NCBI RefSeq assembly: GCF_030811715.1
Contig: NZ_JAUSRH010000001.1
Coordinates: 124,001-188,000, forward strand
Direction of reading: 5' to 3'
DNA: 64,000 nucleotides
Origin: Sinomonas atrocyanea
GTDB lineage: Bacteria; Actinomycetota; Actinomycetes; Actinomycetales; Micrococcaceae
The notes below the pieces were generated by a model. That model searched no databases and had not been told where the DNA came from. It saw nothing but the letters and a program-made list of their open reading frames with translations. Shown piece after piece: positions 2 to 14,417 of the stretch; the first letter of the stretch is position 1, and each line of letters opens with the position of its first letter. The translations under genes were made by a program, and so were the position numbers.

Positions 2-775
2 CGCCCGCTGGCCTGGCGCCGTCCCGTGGATGTGGCCGTCAACCTGCACGGCAATGGCCCCGAGAGCAGGGGCCGGCTCGAGGCGCTGAAGCCCACCTAC
101 CGGATCGGCCACGCGGCACCGGGCTGGGCCGGGCCCGAATGGGACGACTTCCTCCATGAGCGTGACCGCTGGGTGCGCCTGCTGACATGGAACGGCATCG
201 TGGCCGACTCCTCCGACTTCCGCCTCTGCCCGCCCGAGACGCCGGCGCCGGTGGACCGCGCGACGATCCTCCACGTCGGCGCCGCGTACGGCAGCCGGCG
301 CTGGCCCATCGAGCGGTTCGCGGACGTCGCAGCCGTGCTCGCCCTCCGCGGCCATCAGGTGATGGTCACCGGCGGGCCGGACGACGTCTTCCGCGCCTCC
401 GCAGTGGTCAAGGCCGCCGGGCTGCATGCCTCGGCCTGCGTGGCCGGACGCTGGGAGCTCGACCAGTTCGCCGCCGCGATCGCTGCGGCGCGGGCCGTGG
501 TCACCGCCGACACGTCGGCGGCCCATCTGGCCACGGCCTACGGCACGCCGTCGGTGGTCATCTTCGGGCCCGCGGCCCCAGAGCAGTGGGGGCCTCCCGC
601 CGAGGGACCGCACGTGGTCCTCACGGACCCTCTCGTACGCCTGGGCGACCCGTTCGCCGAAGACCCCGACCCGGCGCTGCTCGCCGTCCTGCCTGGCCAC
701 GTCCTCGACGCGTTGGACGGGCTGGAGGAGGACGACGCCGCCGGCCGGGAGGGCGGCGAGGTCGCCTTCACGTAG
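2..775 (+). CDS. Glycosyltransferase family 9 protein, 5'-truncated by the window edge
   Basis: C-terminal portion of a GT9 (ADP-heptose:LPS heptosyltransferase-like) glycosyltransferase. The frame is already open at base 2, before the first possible start (GTG at 26), so the gene almost certainly begins upstream. The visible part has the family's nucleotide-sugar Rossmann domain: a strand ending ILHVGAAYGSRRW near residue 85, then the hallmark TADTSAAHLATAYGTP followed by FGP near residue 167. In actinobacteria, which lack LPS, GT9 enzymes act on surface glycans or teichoic-acid-type polymers, so the substrate cannot be named. The last 30 residues are an acidic tail. A strong terminator follows 38 bases after the stop. 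Family call is firm; function is open. Confidence 0.85.
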   Translation, partial: RPLAWRRPVDVAVNLHGNGPESRGRLEALKPTYRIGHAAPGWAGPEWDDFLHERDRWVRLLTWNGIVADSSDFRLCPPETPAPVDRATILHVGAAYGSRRWPIERFADVAAVLALRGHQVMVTGGPDDVFRASAVVKAAGLHASACVAGRWELDQFAAAIAAARAVVTADTSAAHLATAYGTPSVVIFGPAAPEQWGPPAEGPHVVLTDPLVRLGDPFAEDPDPALLAVLPGHVLDALDGLEEDDAAGREGGEVAFT

Positions 776-913: not shown

Positions 914-1747
914 TCAGGCCGCCATCCTCCTCCGGAGCCTGTCGAGCAGGCGCTTGAGGAGCCGCGAGACCTGCATCTGGCTCACGCCGAGCTCCTTGGC
1001 GATCTCGTCCTGGGTCATCTCCTGGACGAACCGGAGGTCGAGGAGCTGCTTGTCGTTGTCCGTCGCGTCGGACATCGCCCCCGCGAGGGCGTGCATCTGC
1101 TCGACGTGCTCGTAGCCGGGGTCCTCAGCACCGAGGACGACGTTCAGCCGGCGTTCCTCCGGGTCCTCGGATGAGTCCCCGTGCTCGACCGGCTGGCCGA
1201 CCATGGCCGAGTCCGCGATCTGCGCCTCCGCGATGTCCGAGGCGGGGACTCCGGCTGCCTTGCTCAGCTCGGCCGTGGTCGGGTCGTGGCCCAGCTCCTG
1301 GGCGAGCCCCGGGCGCAGGCCGTTGACCTTGAGCCGGAGTTCCTGGAGCGCACGGGGCGGGCGGACCACCCAGGACTGGTCGCGGAGGTAGCGCTTGAGT
1401 TCCCCGGTGATGGTGGGCACCGCGTAGGGCACGAACCCGTGGCCGAGGGGCTCCCGGTAGCGGTGGGCCGCCTTCAGGAGGCCCAGGCGCGCCACCTGGC
1501 GCAGGTCGTCCGCATCATGCCCCGCGCAGCGGAACCTGCGGGCGAGGGCGTCGGCAACGCCGAGGTACTCGACGGCGAGCTGGCCCGCTGCCGCTGCCTC
1601 AGTGCCGGCAGTTGGAGGCTCGCTGCGGCGTGCCGGGCCTTCGGGCGCGGCTCCCAGGACGACGCCGTTGACGCTGTCTGGAGCGCCGGCAAGGTCTGGA
1701 TCGTTGGGCACTGGGAGCAGATGGTTCTGCCGTGGAGCTTCCTGCAT
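914..1747 (-). CDS. RNA polymerase sigma factor, SigB/SigF/SigG type (group 3)
   Basis: Alternative sigma factor of 277 residues. A variable 55-residue head precedes region 2 (DDLRQVARLGLLKAAHRY, then TITGELKRYLRD, the SigB/F signature), a short region 3, and a region 4 helix-turn-helix near residues 247-270 (MTQDEIAKELGVSQMQVSRL). Group 3 sigma factors of this class direct general stress, stationary-phase or sporulation-type regulons in actinobacteria. The start is supported by an AGGAGG-type RBS about 8 bases upstream. No anti-sigma or anti-anti-sigma gene lies beside it. Five sites resembling the SigB/F promoter consensus lie within the next 11 kb, so this protein is the natural candidate to read them; that link is inference. 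Confidence 0.9.
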   Translation of the reverse strand: MQEAPRQNHLLPVPNDPDLAGAPDSVNGVVLGAAPEGPARRSEPPTAGTEAAAAGQLAVEYLGVADALARRFRCAGHDADDLRQVARLGLLKAAHRYREPLGHGFVPYAVPTITGELKRYLRDQSWVVRPPRALQELRLKVNGLRPGLAQELGHDPTTAELSKAAGVPASDIAEAQIADSAMVGQPVEHGDSSEDPEERRLNVVLGAEDPGYEHVEQMHALAGAMSDATDNDKQLLDLRFVQEMTQDEIAKELGVSQMQVSRLLKRLLDRLRRRMAA

Positions 1748-2298
1748 GGCGAGTTGCCTCCTCGCTGGGATTGGAAAGATTGTGGGGCGTCAGTGACTGC
1801 CGGGCGCCTCCTGAGACGAATGGTCCGCGGCGTGCGCGGGGAATTGTGCGGGCCAGGTCCCGGTGTCTCGAGTCCTGGTATCGGGGTTGTCTGCGTCGCC
1901 TCGAGCGGAAGAGGGACACCGGCTGGCCACGGCGGCTGGAGCGTGCCTTGTTTCGCGCCCTGAGGTTTCGCACGCCAAGGCGCGACGGGCGTCTTCGGTG
2001 ATGCGCTCGCGGCGACCGGTGGGTCGCGACGCTTGGGTCATAGTGACGATGAGTCTCCAGTCAACTGGCCACGCGCTTTGGTGGTACGGGCGTGGTGATC
2101 CGGGCCAGCTGCTTGACTCCGGCTTCCACCGTAGGCACGGCTGTCCTTCAGATACAACAGCTCGAGAAGGAGCAATGCTGTCTCTTGGCATCTGGGGTGC
2201 AGATTATCTGGCGCGCTTAGCGATCGGCACGCTCCCGGTTGGGCCGACAATCCGAGGAAAGGCGGCCGTGCCGCGCCGCCGGTCTCCTCGATGGCGGC
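1748..2298. other. Gene-poor intergenic stretch
   Basis: About 550 bases with no credible gene. The open frames crossing it on both strands encode Arg/Pro-rich or low-complexity peptides with no family resemblance. The composition looks slightly less GC-rich than the flanks, notably around 2030-2200. I see no tRNA-like fold, no long inverted repeat and no IS end. It may hold the sigma gene promoter, an unrecognised small RNA, or a decayed gene. Confidence 0.5.
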
Positions 2299-2299
2299 G

Positions 2300-2326
2300 G
2301 TTTTGACGCGGAGCCGAGGCGGGTAT
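2300..2326 (+). promoter_or_regulatory. SigB/SigF-like promoter upstream of the acidic protein gene
   Basis: GTTT at 2300-2303, a 17-base spacer, then GGGTAT at 2321-2326, ending 49 bases before the start codon at 2376. The pattern matches the actinobacterial SigB/F consensus (GNNT/GTTT, 14-17 bases, GGGTAN). Confidence 0.55.
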
Positions 2327-2375
2327 GAACACGTGAGCGGACCACCCCCGCCTTCCACCGATTCGAGAGGACGCC

Positions 2376-2786
2376 ATGGACCAGCGGAATCTTCCTGACG
2401 AGCCCGAGCGCCGGGAGGGCACGCCCCTCGAGGGCGGCGAGGCCACCCACGCAGACCGGGAGGCCGGCGAGGACCGCCCGGCGGAGGGCTCCGGCCCGCA
2501 CCCGGGCACCCCGGTCCCGCGGCACGGGGTCGACGACACCGTGGCCGACGGCCCCACCGACGTCACTCCGTCGTCCCAGGGCGTCGGAGCGGTCTGGGGC
2601 GATGCCGAGCGGACCCCCAACCCCGGCCCTGTCCGCCCGCCCGGGCCCGACGACCAGGCGCGCATCGATGCGGTCGCCGAGGAGTACGAGATCGCGACCA
2701 CCGAGGAGGGCGAGCACTACCTCACGCCTCGGGAGGACGCAGAGACGTCCTCGCAGCCGGCGCGCGACGACTTCCCGGACCACTGA
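2376..2786 (+). CDS. Disordered acidic hypothetical protein
   Basis: Protein of 136 residues rich in Pro, Gly, Glu and Asp, with no hydrophobic segment and little predicted fold apart from a short region near residues 92-115 (DDQARIDAVAEEYEIATTEEGEHYL). ATG start with a GAGAGGA-type RBS 6-7 bases upstream. I do not recognise a family. The composition resembles small hydrophilic stress or desiccation proteins, and a SigB-like promoter lies 49 bases upstream, so a stress role is possible but unproven. It converges on the topoisomerase IB gene (38-base gap). Confidence 0.7.
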   Translation: MDQRNLPDEPERREGTPLEGGEATHADREAGEDRPAEGSGPHPGTPVPRHGVDDTVADGPTDVTPSSQGVGAVWGDAERTPNPGPVRPPGPDDQARIDAVAEEYEIATTEEGEHYLTPREDAETSSQPARDDFPDH

Positions 2787-2824
2787 TCCGGGAATGCAGC
2801 GCCCGTGTGGGCCCGGGTCGCGCC

Positions 2825-3808
2825 CTACGTGCCCGGACCGGTCCGCGGCGTCGAGTCGAGCAGCTCGGCGAGGGCGGCGTCGGAGACCTTGCCACCCGGC
2901 GTCGTGAGCTTCCTGCCCTCGTGGTAGGCGAGGAGGAGCCGCGGGTCCACATAGGATCCGCGGGCCACGGCGATCGTGTTGTGGAGCCAGTCGGCGGCGT
3001 CCGCGATGGCGCGGCGCCACGCCTCCTCGGCGTCGAAGCCCTGCTCGCCGCTGCGGGCGAGGGATTCGGCGGCGATCACGGTGCCGCGCCACGTCCGCAG
3101 GTCCTTGGCGCTCGCACCCATCCCGGCCCTCACGCGCAGGTACCCGTTGAGGGACTCGGATCCGATCCGCTGGAACCCCGTGCCGGACTCGTAGCCGAGG
3201 GCAGCCCGGGACTTCCCGCCCTTCGGCAGGCTGCGGAGGTATTCGGCCAGATCGTGGTCGTGCAGCTGCACCGACCACTGCATCCCGGACTTGCCCGGGA
3301 ACTCCAACGAGATCGTGTCGCCGTCGAGGCGCAGGTGCCGGCGCTGGATCGTCGTGACGCCGAAGGAGCCGTGCTGGCGGGCGTACCTGCGGTTTCCCAC
3401 CCGTACCCCGAGCCTGTCCACGATGCGCAGCGCCGCCGCGAGGGCCTGGTCCTTCGGGCCGTGCTTGCCGCGGAGGTCTTCTGTGACCGCCCGGCGGATG
3501 GCGGGGAGCCGCCGGGCCAGAGCGACCGCGCGGTCGAACTTGCGGGCTTCCTGCCGCTCGCGCCACGTGCTGTGGTACAGGTACTGCTTCCGGCCGGCGG
3601 AGTCGATGCCGGTGGCCTGGACCCGGGCACGCTGAGATGCCGCGATCCGCACGTTCCGCCACGCCGGCGGTATGGCGAGCGCGTCGATCCGCGCGAGGAC
3701 CTCGGGCGAGTCGACCCGCTGGCCGTCCGCGTCCCGGTAGCTGAACCCTTTGCCCGCGCGGCGCCGGGTGATCGTCCCGTGCGCCGTCCGCCTGCTGCGC
3801 GTCTTCAT
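2825..3808 (-). CDS. DNA topoisomerase IB (poxvirus/bacterial type)
   Basis: Type IB topoisomerase of 327 residues, the usual bacterial length. It relaxes supercoils by transient 3'-phosphotyrosyl nicking without ATP. The N-terminal domain includes the motif YLYHSTWRERQEARKFDR. The catalytic domain has RRYARQHGSFGVTTIQRRH, the KDLRTW motif carrying an active-site arginine, and SYVDP with the presumed nucleophile Tyr286 (equivalent to SYIHP in relatives). ATG at 3808. There is little room for a leader if transcription starts from the GGGTAA box just upstream, so the mRNA may be leaderless. The gene is divergent from an SDR gene; both look stress-associated. Confidence 0.92.
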   Translation of the reverse strand: MKTRSRRTAHGTITRRRAGKGFSYRDADGQRVDSPEVLARIDALAIPPAWRNVRIAASQRARVQATGIDSAGRKQYLYHSTWRERQEARKFDRAVALARRLPAIRRAVTEDLRGKHGPKDQALAAALRIVDRLGVRVGNRRYARQHGSFGVTTIQRRHLRLDGDTISLEFPGKSGMQWSVQLHDHDLAEYLRSLPKGGKSRAALGYESGTGFQRIGSESLNGYLRVRAGMGASAKDLRTWRGTVIAAESLARSGEQGFDAEEAWRRAIADAADWLHNTIAVARGSYVDPRLLLAYHEGRKLTTPGGKVSDAALAELLDSTPRTGPGT

Positions 3809-3818
3809 CGGCAGCTAC

Positions 3819-3843
3819 TTACCCACAGCCCCACGGATGGAAT
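3819..3843 (-). promoter_or_regulatory. SigB/SigF-like promoter for topoisomerase IB
   Basis: On the minus strand, GATT (3843-3840), a 15-base spacer, then GGGTAA (3824-3819). The box ends 10 bases before the ATG, which would give a leaderless or near-leaderless transcript. It fits GNNT-N14-16-GGGTAN. Confidence 0.45.
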
Positions 3844-3846
3844 CAG

Positions 3847-3867
3847 CCCGGTCGGCCGCCGACCGGG
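3847..3867. promoter_or_regulatory. 21-bp palindrome in the topIB-SDR divergent region
   Basis: Arms 3847-3855 and 3859-3867 (9 bp, perfect) with a 3-base centre, 21 bases before the SDR start. It could be an operator or a structure in the SDR mRNA leader. No regulator can be assigned. Confidence 0.4.
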
Positions 3868-3888
3868 CCGTCACGGAAGGAGTCACAC

Positions 3889-4773
3889 ATGAACGCATCA
3901 CAACCCCAGGACCCGCGCAGCGCCCGGGTGACGGGCACCATCCCTCCCCAGGACCTCGAGGCGCCGGGGACCACCGGGGCGACCGAGCCGCGCCCGGACC
4001 ACGGTGAGAGCACCTACGAGGGCCATGGGCGCCTCACCGGGCGCGCCGCCCTCATCACGGGCGGGGACTCGGGGATCGGCCGTGCCGTCGCCCTCGCCTT
4101 CGCCAGGGAAGGGGCAGACGTCGCCATCACCGCCATGCCCGAGGAAGCCCAGGACGCGGCCGAGGCCACCGCTGCCATCTCCGACGCCGGGACGCGCGCA
4201 GCGCACTTCGAGGGCGACCTGCGCGACGAGGACTTCGCCTCCTCCCTGCCCGGGCGCACGCTGGAGGAATTCGGGAAGCTGGACATCCTCGTCCTCAACG
4301 CGGCCTACCAGCAGGCCCGGGACGGCATCGACACGGTCTCCACCGAGGAGTTCGACCGGGTGATGCGCACCAACCTCTACAGCCAGTTCTGGCTGCTCCG
4401 CGCAGCGATCCCCCATCTCCAGCCGGGCGCATCCATCATCATCACGAGCTCGGTGCAGGCGGCGGAGCCCTCGGCCGGGCTCTTCGACTACGCGATGACC
4501 AAGGCCGCCCAGGCCGCCCTCGTCAAGGCCCTGGCCCCCGAACTCGGCAAGAAGGGCATCCGCATCAACGCGGTCGCGCCCGGGCCGGTCTGGACGCCGC
4601 TCATCCCCTCGACAGGCTGGCCCGAGCACGTCCCGGAGTTCGGCAAGGACTCGCCCCTCGGACGCCCCGCCCAGCCCGCCGAGCTGGCGCCGGCGTACGT
4701 GCTGCTCGCCTCGGACGAGGCCTCCTACATCTCCGGAGCGGTGGTCCCCGTCACCGGCGGGAAGCCCTTCTAG
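3889..4773 (+). CDS. SDR family oxidoreductase, general-stress (GSP39/YdaD-like) subfamily
   Basis: Classical short-chain dehydrogenase of 294 residues with the extended N-terminus (about 50 residues, Pro-rich) typical of the GSP39/YdaD group, whose Bacillus members belong to the SigB general stress regulon. Visible motifs are TGGDSGIG (57-64, NAD(P) binding), NAAY near 139, the catalytic pair Tyr201/Lys205 (YAMTK), and VAPGPVWTPL after the active site. The substrate is unknown. Strong RBS (GGAAGGAG) before ATG. It is divergent from topoisomerase IB and followed by a 15-bp terminator hairpin. Confidence 0.9.
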   Translation: MNASQPQDPRSARVTGTIPPQDLEAPGTTGATEPRPDHGESTYEGHGRLTGRAALITGGDSGIGRAVALAFAREGADVAITAMPEEAQDAAEATAAISDAGTRAAHFEGDLRDEDFASSLPGRTLEEFGKLDILVLNAAYQQARDGIDTVSTEEFDRVMRTNLYSQFWLLRAAIPHLQPGASIIITSSVQAAEPSAGLFDYAMTKAAQAALVKALAPELGKKGIRINAVAPGPVWTPLIPSTGWPEHVPEFGKDSPLGRPAQPAELAPAYVLLASDEASYISGAVVPVTGGKPF

Positions 4774-4803
4774 GCCAGATCACCCGAAGCCAGTCACGGC
4801 GAA

Positions 4804-4837
4804 GAGGAGCGCCGGTCCATCAGGACCGGCGCTCCTC
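4804..4837. terminator. Bidirectional terminator hairpin
   Basis: Perfect 15-bp arms (4804-4818 and 4823-4837) around the loop atca, between the convergent SDR and DUF2795 genes. Confidence 0.8.
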
Positions 4838-4862
4838 CCCTCTGCTGCGGTGCTCCCGCAGG

Positions 4863-5144
4863 TCACCCCGCGTCGAAGCGGTCGCCGCCGCGCTCGTCGT
4901 CGTCATCCTCTACCCCGGCGTCACCGGCGCCCGCCCGTTCAGGGTGGTTGCCCACCTCCGAGATCGCCTGGCTCACCTCGGTGGGCTTCGCGTAGGAGCG
5001 GTCCGGGATGGCTTCCAGCGAGCGGAGCACGTTGCTGTCGGCGCCCTCCTGCTTGGCCCGGGCAACGAGCGCGCCCTTCTCGGCCGGGTAGTCGACGCCC
5101 TCGAGGAACTTCTGGATCTGGATGGGGTTCGCGGAATCGGTCAT
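4863..5144 (-). CDS. DUF2795 domain protein
   Basis: Small soluble protein of 93 residues. Residues 5-65 match the DUF2795 pattern (NPIQIQKFLEGVDYPA, then LEAIPDRSYAKPTEVSQAI), which resembles a small helical DNA-associated fold. The last 25 residues are an acidic tail (EDDDDERGGDRFDAG). Function is not established for the family. The start has a GAGAGGAG RBS. It lies 24 bases downstream of the membrane coiled-coil gene and probably shares its transcript. Confidence 0.85.
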   Translation of the reverse strand: MTDSANPIQIQKFLEGVDYPAEKGALVARAKQEGADSNVLRSLEAIPDRSYAKPTEVSQAISEVGNHPERAGAGDAGVEDDDDERGGDRFDAG

Positions 5145-5168
5145 GGCTCTCCTCTCATGAGAACCCGC

Positions 5169-5792
5169 TCAGCGGGTTCCCTCGGTCGGTGTGGTGGTCC
5201 CGGTCGCACCGCCGCGCTCGGCGCCGGGCGGCAGGGTTCCGTCGGTGCGGTCGGTGCGGTCGGTGCGGAGGCCTTCCTGCGCCGTCCCGTGGCCGCCGTG
5301 CCGGCCCGGAGCGGTCTCATCGAGCACCGCCTCCTGGCGGGCAACTCCCTCGCGGGCGGCCTCCTCGCGGCGCTCGGCCACGGCCTCCTCGCGGCGCTCC
5401 TGGTGGACCTCCTGGCGGGGGGCCGCCTGCTCGCGGGCGGCGTCGGTTCCTCCGCGGCGGTCCGGATCGAGCTCGTCCGCCTTCCGGCGCTGCTCCTCGA
5501 TCCGCTCGCGGTCCTCGCGGGTGCTCTCGCTGTGTCCCTGGGCCTCGTGGCGGAGGCGGGCGGCCTCCACCTCCGCGCGCTCGGCGCGCACCTGCGCCTC
5601 GCGGGCCTTGACCTCCCGGTCGCGGACGTCGATCTCGCGGCGCGCTGCCTCGGCACGCAGCTCCTCGGCGTGCTCGCGCTGGCGCTGTTTGCGGGCCTCT
5701 CCCCGCTTCCGGGACACCGCGATGGCCACGATGATCGCAATGACGACGATCACTGCAATGACAATGACCGCCGTGAGCTGGGTCGGATCCAT
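5169..5792 (-). CDS. Membrane-anchored coiled-coil hypothetical protein
   Basis: Protein of 207 residues with one N-terminal transmembrane helix (about residues 7-27, nearly all Ile/Val/Ala) followed by a basic stop-transfer and a long Arg/Glu/Ala-rich coiled coil to about residue 165. The tail contains a short tandem RTD repeat (three copies, DNA near 5243-5270). I recognise no enzyme domain. It may be a scaffold or envelope-stress protein. RBS AGGAGG lies 6 bases before ATG, and a SigB-like promoter lies about 35 bases upstream. The gene end overlaps a small stem-loop at 5160-5179. Confidence 0.7.
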   Translation of the reverse strand: MDPTQLTAVIVIAVIVVIAIIVAIAVSRKRGEARKQRQREHAEELRAEAARREIDVRDREVKAREAQVRAERAEVEAARLRHEAQGHSESTREDRERIEEQRRKADELDPDRRGGTDAAREQAAPRQEVHQERREEAVAERREEAAREGVARQEAVLDETAPGRHGGHGTAQEGLRTDRTDRTDGTLPPGAERGGATGTTTPTEGTR

Positions 5793-5825
5793 GGGTCAAC
5801 CTCCTGAGGTCAGGTTTCCCTCCCA

Positions 5826-5851
5826 GTACCCATCAGGCTGTGGATCCAATC
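5826..5851 (-). promoter_or_regulatory. SigB/SigF-like promoter for the coiled-coil / DUF2795 pair
   Basis: On the minus strand, GATT (5851-5848), a 16-base spacer, then GGGTAC (5831-5826), ending 33 bases before the ATG at 5792. Confidence 0.5.
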
Positions 5852-5875
5852 ACTCCGGGCCCAGTCGGCCGCGCC

Positions 5876-6442
5876 TTAGTCCGCTCCCGCGGCGCCGGGC
5901 CCCGCTGCGCCGGTCCCCGCCGGGCGCACCGCCGCCGCGATCGCCGAGGCCACCAGGGCGGGGTCCTCGTGGCTCCAGAACCGCAGGACCTGCCACCCGG
6001 CCGCGCTGAGCGCGGCGGTCGTCTCGGCGTCCCGCTCGCGGTTGCGGGCGATCTTGGGCCGCCAGTAGTCCACGTTGCTCGCCGGCTCGATGTAGTGCTC
6101 GGGGCACCCGTGCCAGTAGCAGCCGTCGATGAACACCGCCACGCGCGCCCGCGTGAACACGAGGTCCGCGGTGCGCCGGAGGGCGGGCACCGGGCGGAAG
6201 GCCACCCGGTAGCGCAGGCCCATCGCGTGGACCGCCCGGCGCACCTTGAGCTCGGGCGCGGTGTCCCGCGAACGGTTCCCGAGCATGGTGCGGCGGATCG
6301 CCGGCGTCGTGGCCCAGGACGGCTCGCCCTTCCGGCTCCGCCGCGTCCGGTCTCCGTCGCGGACGGACGACGCCGGTGACTCGCCCGCCGCCGGTGCGTC
6401 ACCGGCGTCGTGCGTGTCCTCGGGGACCCCGGCCTGGCTCAT
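5876..6442 (-). CDS. vsr: Very short patch repair (Vsr) endonuclease
   Basis: DNA mismatch endonuclease of 188 residues that nicks 5' of the T in T:G mismatches arising by deamination of 5-methylcytosine. Core: GNRSRDT near 55-61, Asp93 in TADLVF, and GCYWHGC at 107-113 with His111. The Asp-His spacing of 18 equals that of E. coli Vsr (Asp51/His69). The frame stays open further upstream, but that part lies antisense to the next operon; ATG at 6442 starts the credible protein with a 50-residue hydrophilic head. No cytosine methyltransferase lies beside it, which is unusual since vsr normally travels with dcm-type genes. Confidence 0.9.
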   Translation of the reverse strand: MSQAGVPEDTHDAGDAPAAGESPASSVRDGDRTRRSRKGEPSWATTPAIRRTMLGNRSRDTAPELKVRRAVHAMGLRYRVAFRPVPALRRTADLVFTRARVAVFIDGCYWHGCPEHYIEPASNVDYWRPKIARNRERDAETTAALSAAGWQVLRFWSHEDPALVASAIAAAVRPAGTGAAGPGAAGAD

Positions 6443-6484
6443 GCGGCCAGCGTACGCCGGCGGCTGGGAAGGTGCTGGAAGCGC

Positions 6485-6509
6485 GTTTTGCCCGCTCGGC
6501 CGCGGGTAG
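6485..6509 (+). promoter_or_regulatory. SigB/SigF-like promoter of the oxidoreductase operon
   Basis: GTTT at 6485-6488, a 15-base spacer, then GGGTAG at 6504-6509, ending 53 bases before the first start codon at 6563. The geometry is nearly the same as at 2300 and 12368. Confidence 0.55.
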
Positions 6510-6562
6510 CGCTGAGGAAGGAGGGCTGGACACCGCCCGGTCCGAGCACGGAAGGAACCCCG

Positions 6563-7072
6563 ATGGGAACACTGGCATTCCTCGCCGCGAAGCGCCCGGG
6601 GCGCGGGCCCCTGAACCGCGGCGGTCCGCTCAGCGTGGTGGAGCCCCGGGGAATCCAGAGGCTCGTCCGCAACGTCGAGACGGGCCGGTTCGAGCGCACC
6701 CTCTCGGGCCTCACCGCCGCCGGGGCGCTCGTGACCGCCGCCGAGATCTACCTCGAGCACGACAAGGCAAGCTTCGGCAATCCCTGGATGTGGGCCCCGG
6801 TGGCCCTCGGGCCGATCGGCGCCGCAGCGGGGATCGGCGGGGTGTTCAGTGCGAGGCTCGCCCACACCGCCCTGCCGATCGCGAGCGCGGCGATCATCGC
6901 GAACGGGCTCCAGGGGACCTACCTCCACCTGCGCGGGATCGCACAGCGCCCCGGCGGCTTCAAGGAACTGCGCTACAACGTCGAGATGGGCCCGCCGCTG
7001 CTGGCCCCGCTGCTCGTGACCCTGGTCGGGGGGATGGGGATCCTCGCTTCGATCCTGAGGAGGGAGCCGTGA
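6563..7072 (+). CDS. Four-TM hypothetical membrane protein, first gene of the oxidoreductase operon
   Basis: Protein of 169 residues. The start at 6563 is chosen because GAAGG lies 7 bases upstream and a promoter lies between 6485 and 6509; a longer open frame from 6410 would precede that promoter. After a 40-residue basic head there are four hydrophobic segments, about 45-62, 70-95, 100-120 and 143-166. I do not recognise a family. It overlaps the next gene by 4 bases (GTGA) and may anchor or serve as electron acceptor partner for the GMC oxidoreductase complex encoded downstream. Confidence 0.75.
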   Translation: MGTLAFLAAKRPGRGPLNRGGPLSVVEPRGIQRLVRNVETGRFERTLSGLTAAGALVTAAEIYLEHDKASFGNPWMWAPVALGPIGAAAGIGGVFSARLAHTALPIASAAIIANGLQGTYLHLRGIAQRPGGFKELRYNVEMGPPLLAPLLVTLVGGMGILASILRREP

Positions 7073-7692
7073 CGCTGCCGCTGCCCGCCGAGGACGGCGG
7101 CGGACGCTTCCCCGGCCAGCACGCGCTCGACGAGCGCGGGCACTGGGACGAGGCCACGGAGGCGCTGGTCCTCTCCCGGACGCAGCGGCCGCCGGACATC
7201 AGCTTCTTCACGGCCCAGGAGCAGGCCATCGCCGCCGCCCTGCTCGACCGGCTCGTGGGCCAGGAGACGGACGCGCAGCCCCGCATCCCCCTCGTGAACT
7301 TCGTCGACGCCCGCCTCGCGGCGGGTGAAACGGACGGCTGGCACTACGCGGACCTGCCCGAGGACGGCGAGGTGTGGCGCCAGGGCCTGCGCTTCCTCGA
7401 CCAGGACGCCCGCGAGCGCTGCGGCACCGGGTTCGCGACCGCGGGACGGGAGCAGCAGGAGGCCATCCTGACCCACCTGCGCTCGACGGACGGCCCTTGG
7501 CACGGCTTCCCGGCCGGTCACGTGTGGAACCTGTGGCTGCGGTACGCGTGCACGGCGTTCTACTCCCACCCGTGGGCGTGGGACGAGATCGGGTTCCCCG
7601 GCCCCGCCTACCCGCGCGGGTACGCGAACCTCGGGATGGGCCGCCGGGAGCACTTCGAGGTCCGGGACGCGCATCCGGGTGAGAGCGCATGA
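7069..7692 (+). CDS. Gluconate 2-dehydrogenase subunit 3-like protein
   Basis: Protein of 207 residues, GTG start overlapping the previous stop. The central part (PDISFFTAQEQAIAAALLDRL, about 43-63) and the Trp/His-rich C-terminus (WHGFPAGHVWNLW ... YSHPWAWDEIGFPGPAYPRGY) match the gamma subunit of membrane gluconate/sugar dehydrogenases. That subunit pairs with a GMC flavoprotein, which is encoded by the next gene with another 4-base overlap. Unlike many relatives it shows no Tat or Sec signal, so the complex may be cytoplasmic or held by the 4-TM protein. No cytochrome subunit is present. Confidence 0.8.
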   Translation: MTLPLPAEDGGGRFPGQHALDERGHWDEATEALVLSRTQRPPDISFFTAQEQAIAAALLDRLVGQETDAQPRIPLVNFVDARLAAGETDGWHYADLPEDGEVWRQGLRFLDQDARERCGTGFATAGREQQEAILTHLRSTDGPWHGFPAGHVWNLWLRYACTAFYSHPWAWDEIGFPGPAYPRGYANLGMGRREHFEVRDAHPGESA

Positions 7693-9389
7693 GCGCCGCC
7701 CGCGGACTGCGCGGGGTCCGGGCACGCAACGAGTCGGCCTGGCTCCTGCCCCTCGCCGACCCGGACGTCAGCACCACCATGCGCCGCTTCGCGGACGACG
7801 ACGAGGTTGACCTCGTGATCGTCGGCTGCGGTGCCGGCGGATCGACCATGGCGCAGCGGCTCGCGCGCGCCGGCTGGAGCATCGTGGTCCTCGAGGCGGG
7901 GCCATTCTGGGAGCCGGACCGCGACTGGGTGAGCGACGAGGCCGGGTCCCACCGGCTGTACTGGACGGAGCCGCGGGTGATCGACGGCGACGACCCGGTG
8001 CCGCTCGGCTCGAACAACTCCGGTCGCGGGGTGGGCGGCTCGATGGTGCACTTCGCCGGCTACACCCCCCGCTTCCATCCGAGCGACTTCCAGACCGAGA
8101 CCCTCGACGGCGTGGGCGCCGACTGGCCCCTGCGCTACGAGGACCTCAAGCCGTACTACGAGGACATCGAGGAGGAACTGCCGGTGGCCGGGCAGGACTG
8201 GCCCTGGGGCGACCCGCACAGCTATCCGCACACCCCGCATCCGGTGGGCGGCAACGGCCAGGCGTTCCTGCGGGGGGCGCTGGCCTGCGGGATCGAGGCC
8301 CGCGTGGGGCCGGTGGCGATCTCCAACGGCCGCTTCGGCCACCGCCGGCACTGCATCTACCGCGGCTTCTGCCTCCAGGGCTGCAAGGTGGACGCGAAGG
8401 CCTCCCCCCTCATCACGCACGTGCCCGACGCGATGGCGCACGGGGCGGAGATCCGGGCTGACTCGATGGTCACCCGCGTTGCCGTGGATCCCCGCACCGG
8501 TCTCGCCACCGGTGTGCACTACGAGCACGGCGGCGTCGAGCATTTCCAGCGCGCGCGGAACGTCGCGGTGGCGGCCTATTCGATCGAGACCCCGCGGCTG
8601 CTGCTCAACTCGGCCTCGCCGCAGTTCCCGGACGGGCTGTGCAACGACCACGACCTCGTGGGCCGCTACCTCATGGTGCAGGGCGCCCCGCAGACCGGCG
8701 GCCGGTTCGAGGAGGAGGTGCGCATGTACAAGGCGCCTCCGCCGGAGGTCAGCAGCGAGGCCTTCTACGAGACGGATCCCACCAAGCCGTACAAGCGCGG
8801 CTACTCGATCCAGACCGTCTCCCCGCTGCCGATCACGTGGGCCGAGCACATTGCCGCGCAGGGACACTGGGGCACCGAGCTGCGCCGCCGGATGACCGAC
8901 TTTGTCCACTGGGCCTGCCTCGGGGCGCTTTGCGAGTTCCTCCCCCAGCCGGAGAACCGCGTCACGCTCGATTCCGAGACGGACCGCCGCGGCCTGCCCG
9001 TGGCGCGCTTCACCTACAGCCGCTGCGGCAACGACCGCCGGCTGATGGCGGCCGCCGCCTCGACGATGGAGCAGATCCTCACGGCCGCGGGGGCGAGCGA
9101 GGTCATGACCATCGAGCGCTACGCCCACCTCGTGGGCGGGGCCCGGATGGCGGCGGACGAGCGGCACGGCGTGGTCGACGGCGACTGCCGCACCTTCGCC
9201 GTGCCGAACCTCCTCATCACCGACGGCAGCGTGCTGCCCACCCAGGGCAGCGCCAACCCAGCACTGACCATCATGTCCCTCGCCGCGCGCACCGCGTCCC
9301 GCCTGGCCGCGGGCGCGCGCGGGGGGATGCGCCAACCACAGCGCGAAACAGCACGCGAACCAGCACGCGAACCAGCAAAGGAGAGCTGA
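7689..9389 (+). CDS. GMC family FAD-dependent oxidoreductase
   Basis: Glucose-methanol-choline oxidoreductase of 566 residues, closest in style to the large subunit of gluconate/sugar dehydrogenases. FAD-binding GCGAGG sits at 46-51, a second GMC block lies near 115 (NNSGRGVGGSMVHFAG), a Cys-rich CIYRGFCLQGC segment near 221-231, and the C-terminal motif TDGSVLPTQGSANPALTIMS near 520. It likely oxidises a sugar or sugar acid. There is no N-terminal signal. The last 20 residues are an odd tandem-repeat tail (AREP repeats; DNA about 9340-9378) immediately before the next gene's RBS. Confidence 0.9.
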   Translation: MSAARGLRGVRARNESAWLLPLADPDVSTTMRRFADDDEVDLVIVGCGAGGSTMAQRLARAGWSIVVLEAGPFWEPDRDWVSDEAGSHRLYWTEPRVIDGDDPVPLGSNNSGRGVGGSMVHFAGYTPRFHPSDFQTETLDGVGADWPLRYEDLKPYYEDIEEELPVAGQDWPWGDPHSYPHTPHPVGGNGQAFLRGALACGIEARVGPVAISNGRFGHRRHCIYRGFCLQGCKVDAKASPLITHVPDAMAHGAEIRADSMVTRVAVDPRTGLATGVHYEHGGVEHFQRARNVAVAAYSIETPRLLLNSASPQFPDGLCNDHDLVGRYLMVQGAPQTGGRFEEEVRMYKAPPPEVSSEAFYETDPTKPYKRGYSIQTVSPLPITWAEHIAAQGHWGTELRRRMTDFVHWACLGALCEFLPQPENRVTLDSETDRRGLPVARFTYSRCGNDRRLMAAAASTMEQILTAAGASEVMTIERYAHLVGGARMAADERHGVVDGDCRTFAVPNLLITDGSVLPTQGSANPALTIMSLAARTASRLAAGARGGMRQPQRETAREPAREPAKES

Positions 9390-9390
9390 C

Positions 9391-11181
9391 ATGGCCGAGA
9401 AGAATGTGGCCGAATTCCTGCTCGAAAGGCTCAAGGCCTGGGACATCAGCACCGTGTTCGGCTACCCCGGGGACGGCATCAACGGCATCGTCACCGCCCT
9501 CGGGAAGGGCGAGGGCCCCCGGTTCGTGCAGGCGCGGCACGAGGAGATGGCCGCCTTCGAAGCGGTGGGCTACGCGAAATTCACGGGCAAGGTCGGAGTG
9601 TGCATGGCCACCTCCGGCCCCGGGGCGGTCCATCTCCTCAACGGCCTCTACGACGCCAAGCTCGACCACGTCCCGGTGGTCGCGATCGTGGGCCAGGCCG
9701 CGCGCACCTCGATCGGCGGCTCCTACCAGCAGGAGATCGACCTGCCCTCGCTGTTCAAGGACGTCGCCTCGGACTACGTCCAGCTCGTCACTGTCCCCGA
9801 GCAGCTGCCCAATGTGATCGACCGCGCCATCAAGGTCGCCTGCGCGCGGCGGGCGCCGACCGCCGTCATCATCCCCTCCGACGTCCAGGAGCTCGAGTAC
9901 TCGGCGCCTGCGCACGAGATGAAGATGGTGCCCTCGAGCCTCGGCATCGAGTGGCCGGAGCTGGCCCCGGACACCGAGGGACTCCGCAGGGCCGCCGCGG
10001 TGCTCAACGAGGGCAAGAAGGTCGCGATCCTCATCGGCCAGGGCGCGCGCAACGCGGCCGCGGAGGTCCAGCAGGTGGCCGAGCTCCTCGGCGCCGGCGT
10101 GGCCAAGGCGCTCCTCGGGAAGGACTCGCTGCCGGACACCCTCCCCTTCGTCACCGGCTCGATCGGGCTTCTGGGGACGAGGCCGAGCTACGAGATGATG
10201 CGCGACTGCGACACCCTGCTCACGATCGGCTCGAGCTTCCCGTACCTGCAGTACATGCCGGAGCCCAAGAAGACCCGGGGAGTGCAGATCGACGTCGACG
10301 CCACCATGATCGGCATGCGCTACCCCTACGAGGTCAACCTCGTGGCCGACGCCGCCGCGGGGCTGCGCGCGCTCATCCCGCTCCTGAACCGCAAGGAGGA
10401 CCGTGGGTGGCGCGAGGACATCGAGGACAAGGTCTCCAAGTGGTGGTCGGACATGCGGGACGAGGCCCTCGTCGAGGCCGATCCGGTCAACCCGCTGCGG
10501 GTGTTCTCGGAGTTCTCCGAGCGCATCCCGGCTTCGGCGATCGTCACCTCGGACTCGGGCAGCGCCGCCAACTGGTACGCGCGGCAGATCCGTTTCCCCG
10601 CCGGAGTGCGCGGGAGCCTGTCCGGGAACCTGGCCACGATGGGACCTGCCGTGCCGTATGCGATCGGCGCCAAGGTGGCCCACCCGGACCGCCCGGTCAT
10701 CGCGTTCGAGGGGGACGGCGCGATGCAGATGAACGGCCTCGCCGAACTCATCACCATCGCCCGCTACTGGAAGGACTGGTCCGATCCCCGGCTCGTCGTC
10801 GTCGTGCTCCACAACAACGACCTGAACCAGGTCACGTGGGAGCTGAGGGCGTTCAGCGGCTCACCCACCGTGCCGATGACGCAGGAGCTGCCGGACGTGG
10901 ACTACGCCGGCTTCGCCGCAAGCCTGGGCCTCGGGGCGATCTCCGTGGAAACCCCGGACGCGCTGGGGGCCGCATGGGACAAGGCGCTCACCGCCACCCG
11001 TCCCACGCTGCTCGACGTGCGCACCGACCCCAACGTGCCGCCCATCCCGCCGCATGCCACGCTCAAGCAGGCCCTGAACACGGCCAAGAGCGCCGCCAAG
11101 GGGGATGAGAACGCGTGGCAGTTCATCAAGGAGGGCCTCAAGGTCAAGGCCCAGGAGCTCCTCCCGGGACACCGGGAATGA
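9391..11181 (+). CDS. Thiamine pyrophosphate-dependent enzyme, pyruvate-oxidase/YdaP-like
   Basis: TPP enzyme of 596 residues with the three-domain acetolactate synthase/pyruvate oxidase layout: PYR domain with the catalytic-Glu block VQARHEEMAAFE near 50, central domain, and PP domain with the Mg-TPP motif GDG at 441 and NN near 475. The GSYQQEIDLPSLFKDVASDYV block fits the pyruvate oxidase side. YdaP of Bacillus subtilis, a general stress protein, is a plausible relative. It starts one base after the GMC stop with AAAGGAG upstream. In this operon it may act on a 2-keto acid made by the neighbouring oxidoreductase and dehydratase-like enzymes. This is one of three TPP paralogues in the window. 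Confidence 0.88.
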   Translation: MAEKNVAEFLLERLKAWDISTVFGYPGDGINGIVTALGKGEGPRFVQARHEEMAAFEAVGYAKFTGKVGVCMATSGPGAVHLLNGLYDAKLDHVPVVAIVGQAARTSIGGSYQQEIDLPSLFKDVASDYVQLVTVPEQLPNVIDRAIKVACARRAPTAVIIPSDVQELEYSAPAHEMKMVPSSLGIEWPELAPDTEGLRRAAAVLNEGKKVAILIGQGARNAAAEVQQVAELLGAGVAKALLGKDSLPDTLPFVTGSIGLLGTRPSYEMMRDCDTLLTIGSSFPYLQYMPEPKKTRGVQIDVDATMIGMRYPYEVNLVADAAAGLRALIPLLNRKEDRGWREDIEDKVSKWWSDMRDEALVEADPVNPLRVFSEFSERIPASAIVTSDSGSAANWYARQIRFPAGVRGSLSGNLATMGPAVPYAIGAKVAHPDRPVIAFEGDGAMQMNGLAELITIARYWKDWSDPRLVVVVLHNNDLNQVTWELRAFSGSPTVPMTQELPDVDYAGFAASLGLGAISVETPDALGAAWDKALTATRPTLLDVRTDPNVPPIPPHATLKQALNTAKSAAKGDENAWQFIKEGLKVKAQELLPGHRE

Positions 11182-12314
11182 ACGCGCCGGCGGGCGCCCC
11201 GATGCACGACGTCGGATCGGGCGCCACGGTCTCGGCCGTCACCGCTGCCGCGTACACCGTCCCGACGGACGAGCCCGAGGCCGATGGGACCTTCGCGTGG
11301 GACTCCACGACCATCGTGGTGGTGCGGGTGGAGGCGGGCGGCACGCACGGGACCGGGTACACGTACGGCCCGGCGGCCCTCGTGGGCGTGGTGCAGGAGC
11401 TCCTCGCGCCGGCGGTCATGGGCGCGGACGTCTTCTCCGTCCCGGCCTGCTCCGAGGCCATGGCCCGGGCCCTGCGCAACGCCGGCCAGTCCGGCGCCGG
11501 CGCGTACGCGGCGTCGGCCCTCGACTGCGCGCTGTGGGACGCCGCCGCGCGGCACGCCGAGCTGCCCCTGCACCAGTTGCTCGGTGCCGCCCGCGCCGAG
11601 GTGCCCGTCTACGGCAGCGGCGGATTCACCACGTACAGCGACGCCCGCATGGCCGAGCAGCTGACCGGCTGGACGGCCCGGGGCATCCCCCGGGTGAAGA
11701 TCAAGATCGGGCAGGACCGCGGCGCGTCGGAGTCCCGCGACATCGCACGCATGCTCGCCGCGCGGGAGGCCATCGGCGGTGACCCCGACCTGTTCGTCGA
11801 CGCCAACGGGGCGTACACCCCGAAGCAGGCCGTGCGCGTGGCGGACGCCGCCGCGGAGGCCAGGATCACGTGGTTCGAGGAGCCCGTCTCGAGCGAGGAC
11901 CTCGACGGGCTGCGGTTCGTCCGCGAGCGCACCTCCCCCGACGTCGCAGCGGGCGAGTACCTCACCCGGCTCAAGGACGCCGAGCGGATGTGCGCCGCCG
12001 GCGCGGTCGACTGCCTGCAGGCCGACGTGACGCGCTGCGGCGGGATCACCGTCTGGCTGCGCATCGCCGCGGTCGCTGCGGCGCACGGCGTGGGCTTCTC
12101 CGGCCACTGCGCCCCGGCGATCTCGACGGCCCCGGCCGCCGCCGCACCGGGGCTGCGCCACCTCGAGTGGTTCCACGACCACGTCCGCCTCGAGTCGATG
12201 CTCTTCGACGGCGTCCCGGACCCGGAGGGCGGGGCCATCGCCCCGGATCCCTCCCTGCTCGGCAACGGGCTGGTGCTCCGCTCGGCCGACGCCGAGCAGT
12301 ACCGGGTCGCCTGA
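11178..12314 (+). CDS. Enolase-superfamily enzyme (mandelate racemase / muconate lactonizing type)
   Basis: Protein of 378 residues, ATG overlapping the TPP gene stop by 4 bases. Active-site residues of the superfamily are all visible: Lys174/Lys176 (KIK), metal ligands Asp208 (VDANG), Glu234 (FEEP) and Glu260 (AGEY), and His310 (GHCAP). Members abstract an alpha proton from a carboxylate and carry out racemisation, cycloisomerisation or acid-sugar dehydration. The context (GMC dehydrogenase, TPP enzyme, MFS transporter) favours an acid-sugar dehydratase; the substrate is unknown. Confidence 0.88.
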   Translation: MNAPAGAPMHDVGSGATVSAVTAAAYTVPTDEPEADGTFAWDSTTIVVVRVEAGGTHGTGYTYGPAALVGVVQELLAPAVMGADVFSVPACSEAMARALRNAGQSGAGAYAASALDCALWDAAARHAELPLHQLLGAARAEVPVYGSGGFTTYSDARMAEQLTGWTARGIPRVKIKIGQDRGASESRDIARMLAAREAIGGDPDLFVDANGAYTPKQAVRVADAAAEARITWFEEPVSSEDLDGLRFVRERTSPDVAAGEYLTRLKDAERMCAAGAVDCLQADVTRCGGITVWLRIAAVAAAHGVGFSGHCAPAISTAPAAAAPGLRHLEWFHDHVRLESMLFDGVPDPEGGAIAPDPSLLGNGLVLRSADAEQYRVA

Positions 12315-12367
12315 TGAATCCCGGCGCCGGACCGCTGCGGGCCGCCACGGCCCCGGGGCCGCGCGCC

Positions 12368-12393
12368 GTTTCGCGCCGCGGGCGTGCGGGTAA
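12368..12393 (+). promoter_or_regulatory. SigB/SigF-like promoter of the MFS transporter gene
   Basis: GTTT at 12368-12371, a 16-base spacer, then GGGTAA at 12388-12393, ending 54 bases before the start at 12448. Best match to the consensus in the window. Confidence 0.6.
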
Positions 12394-12447: not shown

Positions 12448-13896
12448 ATGAGTCAGAGCACGCTCGGCACCATCCGCACCAGCATCCCGGGCAGGCTCGA
12501 CCGCCTGCCCTGGGCCAGATGGCACTGGATGGTGGTGATCGGCCTCGGCACAGTCTGGATCCTCGACGGGCTCGAGGTCACGATCGTCGGATCGATCAGC
12601 GACCGGCTGACCCAGCCCTCCGCGGGGCTGGGCCTCTCCCCCGCCGGGATCGGCCTCGCAGCCGCGATCTACGTGGCGGGCGCCTGCGTGGGCTCCCTCG
12701 TCTTCGGCTACCTCACGGACCGGTTCGGCCGGAAGCGGCTGTTCATCATCACCCTCGGCCTGTACCTGCTGGCCACGGTCGCCACCGCGTTCTCCTTCAA
12801 CCCGGTCTACTTCTACATCTGCCGGTTCTTCACCGGCGCCGGGATCGGCGGCGAGTACTCCGCGATCAACTCGGCGATCGACGAGCTCATCCCCGCCCGT
12901 CGCCGCGGGCTCGTTGACCTCGCCATCAACGGCTCCTACTGGCTCGGCACCGCCTTCGGGGCCATGCTCTCGGTGGTCCTGCTGAACACCGCGCTGTTCC
13001 CCGCCGAGCTGGGGTGGCGGCTCGCTTTCGGGCTCGGCGCCGTCCTGGGCCTCCTCATCCTGCTCGTGCGGCGCAACGTGCCCGAATCGCCGCGGTGGAT
13101 GTTCATCCACGGCCACGAGGATGCGGCGGAGAAGACGGTCGAGGACATCGAGTCGGAGATCGAGAAGGAGACCGGACGCCGGCTCAGCGACGTCGACGAC
13201 TCCATCACGATCAAGCAGCGCCGCTCGATCGGGTTCGGCGAGATCATCCGTGTCTCCCTCGAGCGGTACCCCAAGCGCGTGGTCCTGGGCCTGTCGCTCT
13301 TCATCGGCCAGGCCTTCCTCTACAACGCGGTCTTCTTCACCTACGCGCTCGTCCTGACCAAGCTCATGCACGTTCCCGAGGACGTGGCGCCGTGGGCCCT
13401 CGTGGCCATCGCGGTGGGCAACTTCGCCGGTCCGCTCACGCTCGGCCACCTGTTCGACTCCGTGGGCCGCAAGGTCATGATCTCGGTGACCTACATCGGC
13501 TCCGGCGTCCTCCTCGCCGTCGTGGGCGCCCTGTTCCGGGCGGGCGCCCTGGACGGGTTCTGGCTCACCGCCTGCTGGACCATCGTGTTCTTCGTGGCCT
13601 CGTGCGGCGCGAGCAGCGCCTACCTCACCGTGAGCGAGGTCTTCCCGCTCGAGACCCGGGCGCTCGCCATCGCGTTCTTCTACGCGGTGGGCACCGGCCT
13701 CGGCGGCATCATCGGCCCGCTCCTCTTCGGCAGCCTCATCGGTCAGGGAGTCGGCGCCGTGGCCGTGGGCTACTTCATCGGCGCGGGGCTGATGGTCGCC
13801 GCAGGCCTCGTCGAGGTGTTCCTCGGCGTCGAGGCCGCCCGCACCTCGCTCGAGGAGGTTGCGCGGCCCATCACGGCACAGCAGGAGGCGGTGTGA
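12448..13896 (+). CDS. MFS transporter, metabolite:H+ symporter / sugar porter type
   Basis: Twelve-helix major facilitator of 482 residues. The loop 2-3 signature [13 protein letters not shown] lies near residues 88-100, the sugar-porter-like [17 protein letters not shown] near 130, a long charged central loop at about 220-265, and a second DSVGRK loop near 345. The N-terminus resembles sugar-acid and aromatic-acid importers. Strong RBS (AGGAGG) before ATG. It has its own SigB-like promoter but follows the oxidoreductase operon by 133 bases, so it is a good candidate importer of that pathway's substrate. Its stop overlaps the mrpE start. Confidence 0.88.
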
Positions 13897-14417
13897 ACCG
13901 GCAGGCGGCCGGCGGGGCGGACCAGCCGGCGTCCCGCGCCGCCCCCGCCCGCGCCGCTGGAGAGTACGCGGCGTGGACGGCCGCGGGAACCCTCTTCTGG
14001 CTCGCGACGGCCTCGACCGTCACGGCCGTGGAGACCGTGGCGGCAGCTGCAGTCTCCTTGGTCTGCGCGGTGCTCGCGAGGCTGGCCCGCCGGGCCCTGC
14101 CATTCCGGGCACGCCCCGTCCGCGGGTGGCTGCGGTGGGCCGCCGTGGTGCCGGTGGCAGCGGTGGCGGACATGGTCCGCCTGCCGCGCTGGCTGCGTGC
14201 GGGGCAGCCGGAAGAGCTGCGCGAGGCCACCATGCCCGCGGGCGGCCCCCGGCAGACCGGCTGGCGTGCCGGCGGCATCGTCGCCCTCTCCGCGACGCCG
14301 GGCTCGGTCGTCGTCGCGTCCGACCCTGACTCCGGAGCGGTGACGGTCCACTCGGTCACCTCCGGCTGGCCCCGGCTGGACGAGCAGGTTCTGAAGGAGC
14401 AGGAGCCTGAGCGATGA
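13893..14417 (+). CDS. mrpE: Na+/H+ antiporter subunit E (MrpE/MbhA-like)
   Basis: Protein of 174 residues, GTG start overlapping the MFS stop (GTGTGA). After a 25-residue hydrophilic head there are hydrophobic segments at about 27-60, then the MrpE-style domain ([19 protein letters not shown] ... [10 protein letters not shown] ... VHSVTSGWP). It is the membrane-peripheral small subunit of an Mrp-type cation/proton antiporter and opens a seven-gene run whose stops and starts overlap or nearly so. Confidence 0.85.

Follow-up and report, generated by a model that had tools for sequence, protein, structure and literature searches.

Probable SigB/F-type promoters clustered beside a SigB/F-like sigma gene in Sinomonas, with topoisomerase IB among the genes they would control

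The SigB regulon of Bacillus combines promoters of the form GTTT...GGGTA with a general-stress gene content. In mycobacteria, the SigF consensus is GTTT-N14-19-GGGTA and the gene list is similar to the one reported here (PMC4694148). In Mycobacterium smegmatis, many genes of this regulon carry neighbouring locus tags in a cluster (MSMEG_1758-1804) that ends at sigF, and the regulon also includes a type I topoisomerase (MSMEG_1784), an RsbW gene under a SigF promoter (MSMEG_1787) and oxidoreductases (PMC4694148, PMC7693655) as well as, elsewhere, a Na+/H+ antiporter, a hemerythrin and a starvation-induced DNA-protecting protein (PMC4694148). Streptomyces coelicolor possesses nine SigB homologues with conserved regions 2.4 and 4.2 and GNNT/GTTT...GGGTA promoters, which these homologues cross-recognise; the sequence of the Bacillus Pctc promoter is quoted in the same article (PMC8346170). 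No paper joining Sinomonas, sigma factor and SigB was present among the literature matches listed. We describe here a 64-kb stretch of a Sinomonas genome (the window; G000:C1:124001-188000 of a 4.23 Mb genome), in which five copies of a SigB/F-type promoter motif, one of them before the gene of a DNA topoisomerase IB (TopIB), lie close to a gene for a SigB/F-like sigma factor. By analogy, this cluster would be in kind a SigF-type regulon gathered by its own sigma gene, as in M. smegmatis.

Scanned on both strands, the window contains the pattern GWTT-N15-17-GGGTA five times, all within positions 2300-12392:

2300-2325 (to 2326 with the sixth base), plus strand: candidate SigB/F-type promoter GTTT-N17-GGGTA(T), before the acidic protein gene
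3844-3820 (to 3819 with the sixth base), minus strand: candidate SigB/F-type promoter GATT-N16-GGGTA(A), before TopIB
5851-5827 (to 5826 with the sixth base), minus strand: candidate SigB/F-type promoter GATT-N16-GGGTA(C), before the coiled-coil gene
6485-6508 (to 6509 with the sixth base), plus strand: candidate SigB/F-type promoter GTTT-N15-GGGTA(G), before the oxidoreductase operon
12368-12392 (to 12393 with the sixth base), plus strand: candidate SigB/F-type promoter GTTT-N16-GGGTA(A), before a major facilitator superfamily (MFS) gene

The preliminary description of this stretch had placed five such sites at these positions, and the scan returned all of them and no further copy. It had also given a distance of 49-54 bases to the start codon on the plus strand, in agreement with the 49, 53 and 54 nucleotides (nt) obtained when the sixth base of the -10 box is counted (50, 54 and 55 nt from the end of GGGTA). 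On the minus strand, GGGTA lies 34 nt before the start codon of the coiled-coil gene and 11 nt before that of TopIB.

Across the 4,229,070 bases of the genome the same pattern occurs 39 times and its reversed form 12 times. The preliminary description had suggested such a whole-genome scan, with enrichment near start codons as the expected outcome and equal frequency inside coding regions as the contrary one. Enrichment is what was found: a same-strand called start follows within 150 nt at 34 of the 39 sites, versus 2 of the 12 reversed controls (Fisher p 1.2e-5), a small control set in which four members are copies of one repeated element and six have no downstream gene called in the fetched stretch. 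Regarding placement, 37 sites are intergenic, one lies across a gene end and only one falls inside a called gene; since the reversed controls are likewise mostly intergenic (10/12), proximity to starts is the useful contrast. Moreover, 200,000 simulations with 39 randomly placed sites brought any five together in a span of 10,093 bp 18 times. Chance or base composition might be invoked to explain the cluster in a genome of 72% GC: GGGTA and GWTT are short, and in many other Micrococcaceae the pattern and its reverse are similarly frequent. With the excess over the reversed pattern, the position near starts, the simulations and the conservation detailed below all speaking against it, we hold this to be extremely improbable. 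As a side observation, an element ATGGGAATCAGTGC(A/C)GGAGCCTTAG is present in four copies outside called genes (G000:C3:325844, C12:170, C12:7057 and C22:9350) and is probably the end of a repeated mobile element.

Conservation was followed in 13 Sinomonas loci around the orthologous sigma gene, where the pattern G[AGT]TT-N14-18-GGGTA was sought between 300 nt before each gene and 45 nt into it. For the five first genes that carry a promoter, 23 of 30 orthologues keep the motif (17/30 with GWTT), versus 2 of 67 for eleven other neighbourhood genes; the reversed pattern is found in 0/97. Both exceptions are heads of shortened operons, namely the thiamine pyrophosphate (TPP) enzyme gene in R1AF57 and the enolase-type gene in S. 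cellulolyticus. Gene by gene, the promoter is retained in 5/5 relatives having the first gene of the oxidoreductase operon, in 7/8 for the coiled-coil gene (five with GATT, two with GGTT), in 6/8 for TopIB (two with GATT, four with GGTT only), in 2/3 for the MFS gene and in 3/6 for the acidic protein gene (L155, L156 and L164); for the latter, two further motifs, about 10 nt before the start codon in L040 (= L157) and L042, were missed by start extrapolation. Between relatives the spacers have diverged and the boxes were kept. The GGTT box used by four TopIB promoters of relatives is barely enriched genome-wide (26 copies vs 16 reversed; five of these copies overlap, as GGTTT, sites already counted); it was hence rejected as a full -35 variant and accepted only in orthologous promoters, where it accounts for 6 of the 23 matches.

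A genome whose sigma factor is 76% identical (G121) offers a second view. The two genomes have in common eleven motif-bearing genes at up to 250 nt downstream of a site (MFS pairs of 28% identity being left out), and for five of these the 10-12 nt spacing is also the same. This spacing belongs to a distinct class: from GGGTA to the start codon, 10 of the 39 sites measure 10-11 nt, 18 measure 34-75 nt, seven 108-177 nt, and four are farther away or geneless; the short class gains an eleventh member in site L032, which is followed by an in-frame ATG after 11 nt. In G121, 6 of 40 sites (listed in 42 rows, since each of two overlapping sites falls in two loci) have a 10-12 nt spacing, and five of these precede orthologues of genes of the same class in the genome of the window. 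TopIB of the window falls in the short class, and for about a quarter of the sites, its own among them, leaderless or near-leaderless mRNAs are predicted. Such a class would not be new in kind, since a published SigF table has many entries with 8-11 nt before the start codon (PMC4694148, Table 1) and leaderless transcripts amount to 24% in M. smegmatis (PMC6448022). Two side observations involve G121. A sixth site of the locus, outside the window at G000:C1:112651-112674, stands 137 nt upstream of the called start of a third GT9 gene in the heptose cluster, and the G121 orthologue of this gene (73% identical) has a site 55 nt before it. A DUF2795 gene resembling by eye the one of the window has a motif site 90 nt upstream (L096).

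That the boxes belong to another regulator sharing GTTT/GGGTA, be it an ECF sigma factor or a DNA-binding activator, appears very improbable. The 15-17 nt between boxes and the fixed 10-11 nt start class fit a sigma -35/-10 pair, and the sequence equals the published SigF/SigB consensus (PMC4694148, PMC8346170, PMC7693655). From their excess over the reversed pattern, their proximity to starts and their conservation, the five sites are very probably SigB/F-type promoters, which would be read by a SigB/F-type RNA polymerase holoenzyme. The five units that they would drive, and the genes around them, are the following:

26..775, plus strand: 3' part of a GT9 (heptosyltransferase-family) gene, at the edge of the heptose cluster flanking the sigma gene (Pfam PF01075; whole gene G000:C1:123798-124775)
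914..1747, minus strand: SigB/SigF-like sigma factor, 277 amino acids (Pfam sigma70 r2, r3 and r4)
2376..2786, plus strand: acidic protein, 136 amino acids (D+E 33, K+R 11)
2825..3808, minus strand: TopIB, 327 amino acids (Pfam PF01028 and PF21338)
3889..4773, plus strand: short-chain dehydrogenase (SDR), outside the control of the five promoters (Pfam/NCBIfam)
4863..5144, minus strand: DUF2795 protein, second gene of the coiled-coil unit (Pfam)
5169..5792, minus strand: coiled-coil protein with an N-terminal hydrophobic stretch, first gene of the unit
5876-6442: Vsr-family endonuclease gene, between two promoters
6563..12314, plus strand: probable operon of five genes
6563-7072, plus strand: small protein, operon gene 1
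7069-7692, plus strand: gluconate 2-dehydrogenase subunit 3 family, operon gene 2 (Pfam/NCBIfam)
7689-9389, plus strand: GMC oxidoreductase, operon gene 3 (Pfam/NCBIfam)
9391-11181, plus strand: TPP enzyme PRK08273, operon gene 4 (Pfam/NCBIfam)
11178-12314, plus strand: enolase-superfamily enzyme, operon gene 5 (Pfam/NCBIfam)
12448-13896, plus strand: MFS transporter, within the run 12448..16452
13893 onward (to 16452), plus strand: Na+/H+ (Mrp/Mnh) antiporter gene run

The promoter at 12368 would probably drive the Na+/H+ antiporter too, since the stop codon of the MFS gene overlaps the first Mrp/Mnh gene, with a start overlap also in L155 and L156. No Pfam family matched the acidic or the coiled-coil protein; the former has a conserved C-terminal core in six Sinomonas relatives, and its designation as a FlgM-like anti-sigma factor, from position and composition, is only a guess. 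The Vsr-family gene is near the sigma gene in 9 of 13 relatives and has a SigF-type promoter of its own in 0/9.

The sigma factor of the window shares 93% identity with one of Sinomonas atrocyanea DS1015, and the 13 named loci that it retrieved all belong to Sinomonas. It exceeds the gathering scores of Pfam sigma70 regions 2, 3 and 4 and can be aligned with a sigma chain of solved structure (8x6g) through regions 2.4 and 4.2. The genome encodes six full SigB/F-like genes, i.e., the one of the window and five paralogues at 53-58% identity, and two more distant matches. Three of the five paralogues (L053-L055; C12:5463-6188, C13:104527-105210 and C1:35560-36333) are divergent to a TetR-like regulator named by eye, and in S. 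atrocyanea four closely similar sigma copies were seen; this looks like a recent expansion of a sigma-TetR module in Sinomonas. In addition, two 28-codon ends of SigB/F-like genes (86% identity) are present at contig ends, C13:129795-129878 and C14:111829-111912, and at least one further paralogue has probably been lost in assembly gaps.

With such a set of paralogues, genuine promoters could have their main reader elsewhere than in the neighbouring sigma, be it a single one of the five SigB/F-like paralogues, more than one of them, or several sigmas whose specificities overlap. The recognition helix of region 4.2 reads VSQMQVSRLL in five of the six SigB/F-like sigmas, and the window sigma and three paralogues hardly differ in region 2.4, according to a comparison of the aligned recognition regions only (a family tree, in which many forks are unresolved, was not used). 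Cross-recognition is described among the S. coelicolor SigB homologues (PMC8346170), and 11 of the 11 Sinomonas genomes in the family sample possess the orthologue and at least one paralogue, so that presence alone does not separate them as readers. The site cluster, however, is beside the window sigma only, the nearest same-contig site of the other paralogues being about 13 kb away. We give this alternative real weight while placing it clearly under even likelihood; the adjacent sigma is favoured as the reader of the five sites, and is not proven because of the shared helix and region 2.4 and of the cross-recognition in Streptomyces.

As a test of which sigma reads the sites, the whole-genome ratio of motif to reversed pattern was also computed in 197 Micrococcaceae genomes and rejected, being confounded by base composition; it is high in several genomes of genus g3, whose best sigma match reaches only about E 1e-11.

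Several observations weigh against the attribution of a conserved regulon to the adjacent sigma. The window sigma scores under the NCBIfam cut-offs for SigBFG (TIGR02980, 204.4 of 234.35 bits) and SigF (PRK07122, 194.4 of 372 bits). No GGGTA is present on its own strand in the 628 nt upstream of the gene, no promoter of this type within 300 nt in any of the 13 relatives, and a PF13581 search of the genome found no RsbW-type gene within about 1.5 kb of any of the six sigmas. The promoter-bearing genes are apart from the sigma gene in 5 of 13 loci (G175, G150, G135, G186 and ASV322; one locus spans just 12.5 kb), and in G121 the distance to a called start is at most 150 nt for just 22 of the 40 sites. 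The ratio of motif to reversed pattern is low in some Sinomonas, as in G006 (17:14), and close to 1 in many Micrococcaceae outside this genus. Finally, gene starts were called with a home-made codon-based program trained on this genome, which matched 19 of 21 genes in the first 17 kb to coordinates picked from the list of open reading frames. Being below the SigBFG and SigF cut-offs, without adjacent anti-sigma and without such a promoter of its own, the window sigma is best called SigB/F-like, a positional counterpart of SigF and not a SigF.

Overall, we consider it likely that the sites are SigB/F-type promoters driving five units (the acidic protein; TopIB; the coiled-coil and DUF2795 proteins; the oxidoreductase/TPP operon; the MFS transporter and probably the Mrp antiporter), that these units are where a genome-wide regulon with some 35-39 strict sites is densest, and that its likeliest reader is the adjacent sigma, counterpart by position of mycobacterial SigF. 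Activation may proceed by partner switching in trans, through an unlinked STAS and RsbW pair encoded on contig C7, which carries none of the six sigmas, and through a motif-bearing RsbW-like protein on contig C19. A further PF13581 match is located in a long kinase-like frame about 2.4 kb from the paralogue at C13:11930. The promoter of the RsbW-like gene of C19 is present in 3/3 orthologues more than 80% identical (its own genome, G084 and G162); none was found in 11 more distant RsbW-like genes, and the gene has no match in 5 of 15 Sinomonas genomes. In M. smegmatis, the RsbW homologue RsbW3 is a member of the SigF regulon and boosts the response (PMC7693655).

Beyond the window, the putative regulon holds a ferritin-like (Dps-like) protein, a hemerythrin, an SRPBCC protein, an SDR, a proteasomal ATPase, a RecQ-type helicase and a Na+/H+ exchanger, together with a zinc alcohol dehydrogenase, rhodanese/beta-lactamase-fold enzymes, a protein kinase, CrgA, YceG, glycosidases and this RsbW-like HATPase_c_2 protein; several other genes matched no Pfam family. 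This content, compared with that of mycobacterial SigF, suggests a general-stress role. The preliminary description had proposed a local general-stress regulon beside a SigB/SigF-type sigma: its clustered promoters are very probably of SigB/F type and are mostly kept in congeners having these genes, and the regulon would extend genome-wide instead of being local. Among the genes it had called upon, the TPP enzyme indeed lies within the operon starting downstream of 6485, whereas the SDR at 3889-4773 has no such promoter here or in any of 6 relatives and lends no support.

Compared with the described systems, the locus shows several variant features. Unlike in the mycobacterial SigF locus, the Sinomonas sigma has no adjacent RsbW gene or rsbW-sigF operon and no SigF-type promoter of its own, scores under the SigF cut-off and has several paralogues. 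Unlike in Bacillus, neither an rsbV-rsbW-sigB operon nor an autoregulatory promoter is present. The sigmas also differ from the S. coelicolor homologues in having no RsbW-type gene beside them, three being divergent to a TetR-like gene. The absence of a linked anti-sigma and of an autoregulatory motif, the paralogues and a TopIB mRNA predicted to be leaderless thus set this cluster apart as a variant.

The link with TopIB was followed outside Sinomonas. TopIB as a SigF gene across the order Micrococcales was rejected: neither GWTT-GGGTA nor GNNT-GGGTA is present in 28 non-Sinomonas upstream regions (1.40 expected from shuffles), and the looser GNNT-GGG[TA]A is found in one of 28 versus 6 reversed. 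A different picture emerged in a family (f22) consisting mostly of one genus (g117) with genomes of about 5-7 Mb, for which 18 of the 19 genomes with a TopIB match were covered (G594 being left out). GNNT-N14-18-GGGTA occurs within 250 nt upstream of TopIB in 16/18 (shuffled mean 1.07, maximum 5), compared with 8 of 20 other members of the class (shuffled mean 1.01, maximum 6). The strict GWTT form is present in 2/18, 0/20 of the other class members and 0/28 of the other Micrococcales, and the TopIB motif of f22 is therefore a variant, mostly GTGT...GGGTA. Over 13 whole f22 loci, 40 strict GWTT motifs were counted versus 2 reversed, with 1 versus 0 in 18 other class loci and none in 9 order loci. 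Upstream of TopIB in f22, the reversed pattern is present in 1/18; the motif also occurs on the opposite strand in 11/18, a control discarded as not clean because in L288 and L290 it precedes the divergent gene, which in L288 belongs to an rsbW-sigF pair.

In 12 of the 18 f22 genomes, about 12 kb or less separates TopIB from a SigB/F-like sigma gene, as seen in 8 of 13 whole loci and in the half-loci G647, G519, G670 and G778 (not G785); G639, G693, G630, G536 and G792, in which none was found, were covered to about 9.5 kb or to the contig end, and L301 contains one side of the TopIB gene only. The 20 other class genomes and 9 order genomes, picked by hand, gave 3/20 (G749, G484 and G529) and, within about 9.5 kb, 0/9. 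In L288, the gene divergent from TopIB is of HATPase_c_2 (RsbW) type; next comes a sigma gene whose product exceeds the cut-offs of SigF (465.6 of 372 bits) and TIGR02980 (308.1 bits), and after it STAS, biotin-carboxylase-like, sulfurtransferase-like and Maf genes. We take this gene order to be that of the mycobacterial sigF locus, and infer from it that genus g117 is Mycobacterium. On the other side of L288 is a heptose/GT9 cluster, the same six genes of which flank sigma and TopIB in the genome of the window at C1:116.8-127.8 kb (42-60% identical); these six genes, TopIB and sigma are shared with L288 and L290 at 37-60% identity. All six accompany sigma and TopIB in 7/18 f22 genomes (G685, G475, G818, G723, G709, G647 and G519). 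Among 16 hand-picked sigma loci of Micrococcaceae other than Sinomonas, 11 have several GT9/HAD genes, one has GT9 alone and four have none.

Two kinds of arrangement were observed alongside. In four Micrococcaceae genomes (L200-L203; genera g22 and g24), the SigB/F-like gene is apart from the heptose cluster, and in L200, L202 and L203 a small protein with 'KFENKAEELKGK', presumably CsbD-like, was called near it. In L276-L277 (G563, family f53), the heptose cluster is beside TopIB and no SigB/F-like sigma was found in about 20 kb on either side; a link between TopIB and heptose genes may thus exist without sigma.

Data on the mycobacterial gene point in two directions. MSMEG_1784, annotated as a type I topoisomerase and presumably the TopIB counterpart, is down by 3.5-4.3 log2 units in ΔsigF and has GTGT-N16-GGGTA 183 nt upstream (PMC4694148); in two f22 genomes, GTGT-N15-GGGTA lies about 182 nt before the extrapolated TopIB start. 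The same gene was induced early in the cold, at a time when at least 50 genes of the SigF regulon went down (PMC10454040), a behaviour at odds with control by SigF alone. In literature searches limited to open-licence articles, no link between TopIB and SigF was found beyond these named table entries. We tentatively propose, as one joint statement that we place somewhat short of even likelihood, that in a broad part of Actinobacteria TopIB is a dedicated SigF/SigB stress enzyme, in a SigF locus that is part of an old heptose-sigma-TopIB neighbourhood and with SigF-type promoters in Sinomonas and, presumably, Mycobacterium, and that the sigma of the Sinomonas locus has lost its linked anti-sigma, being perhaps controlled in trans or by the acidic protein now encoded between sigma and TopIB.

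To our knowledge, the role of bacterial topoisomerase IB is poorly known. With controls and conservation now behind the earlier reading, Sinomonas has a tested prediction of a SigB/F regulon; the promoter cluster is ordinary in kind, and the link to TopIB is the interesting part. The heptose-sigma-TopIB neighbourhood may serve as a marker for SigF counterparts where sequence scores are too low. Moreover, SigF-type promoters and a nearby sigma in two distant actinobacterial lineages would tell when to look for the role of TopIB: a mutant of this enzyme is expected to be normal until the SigF response is on.

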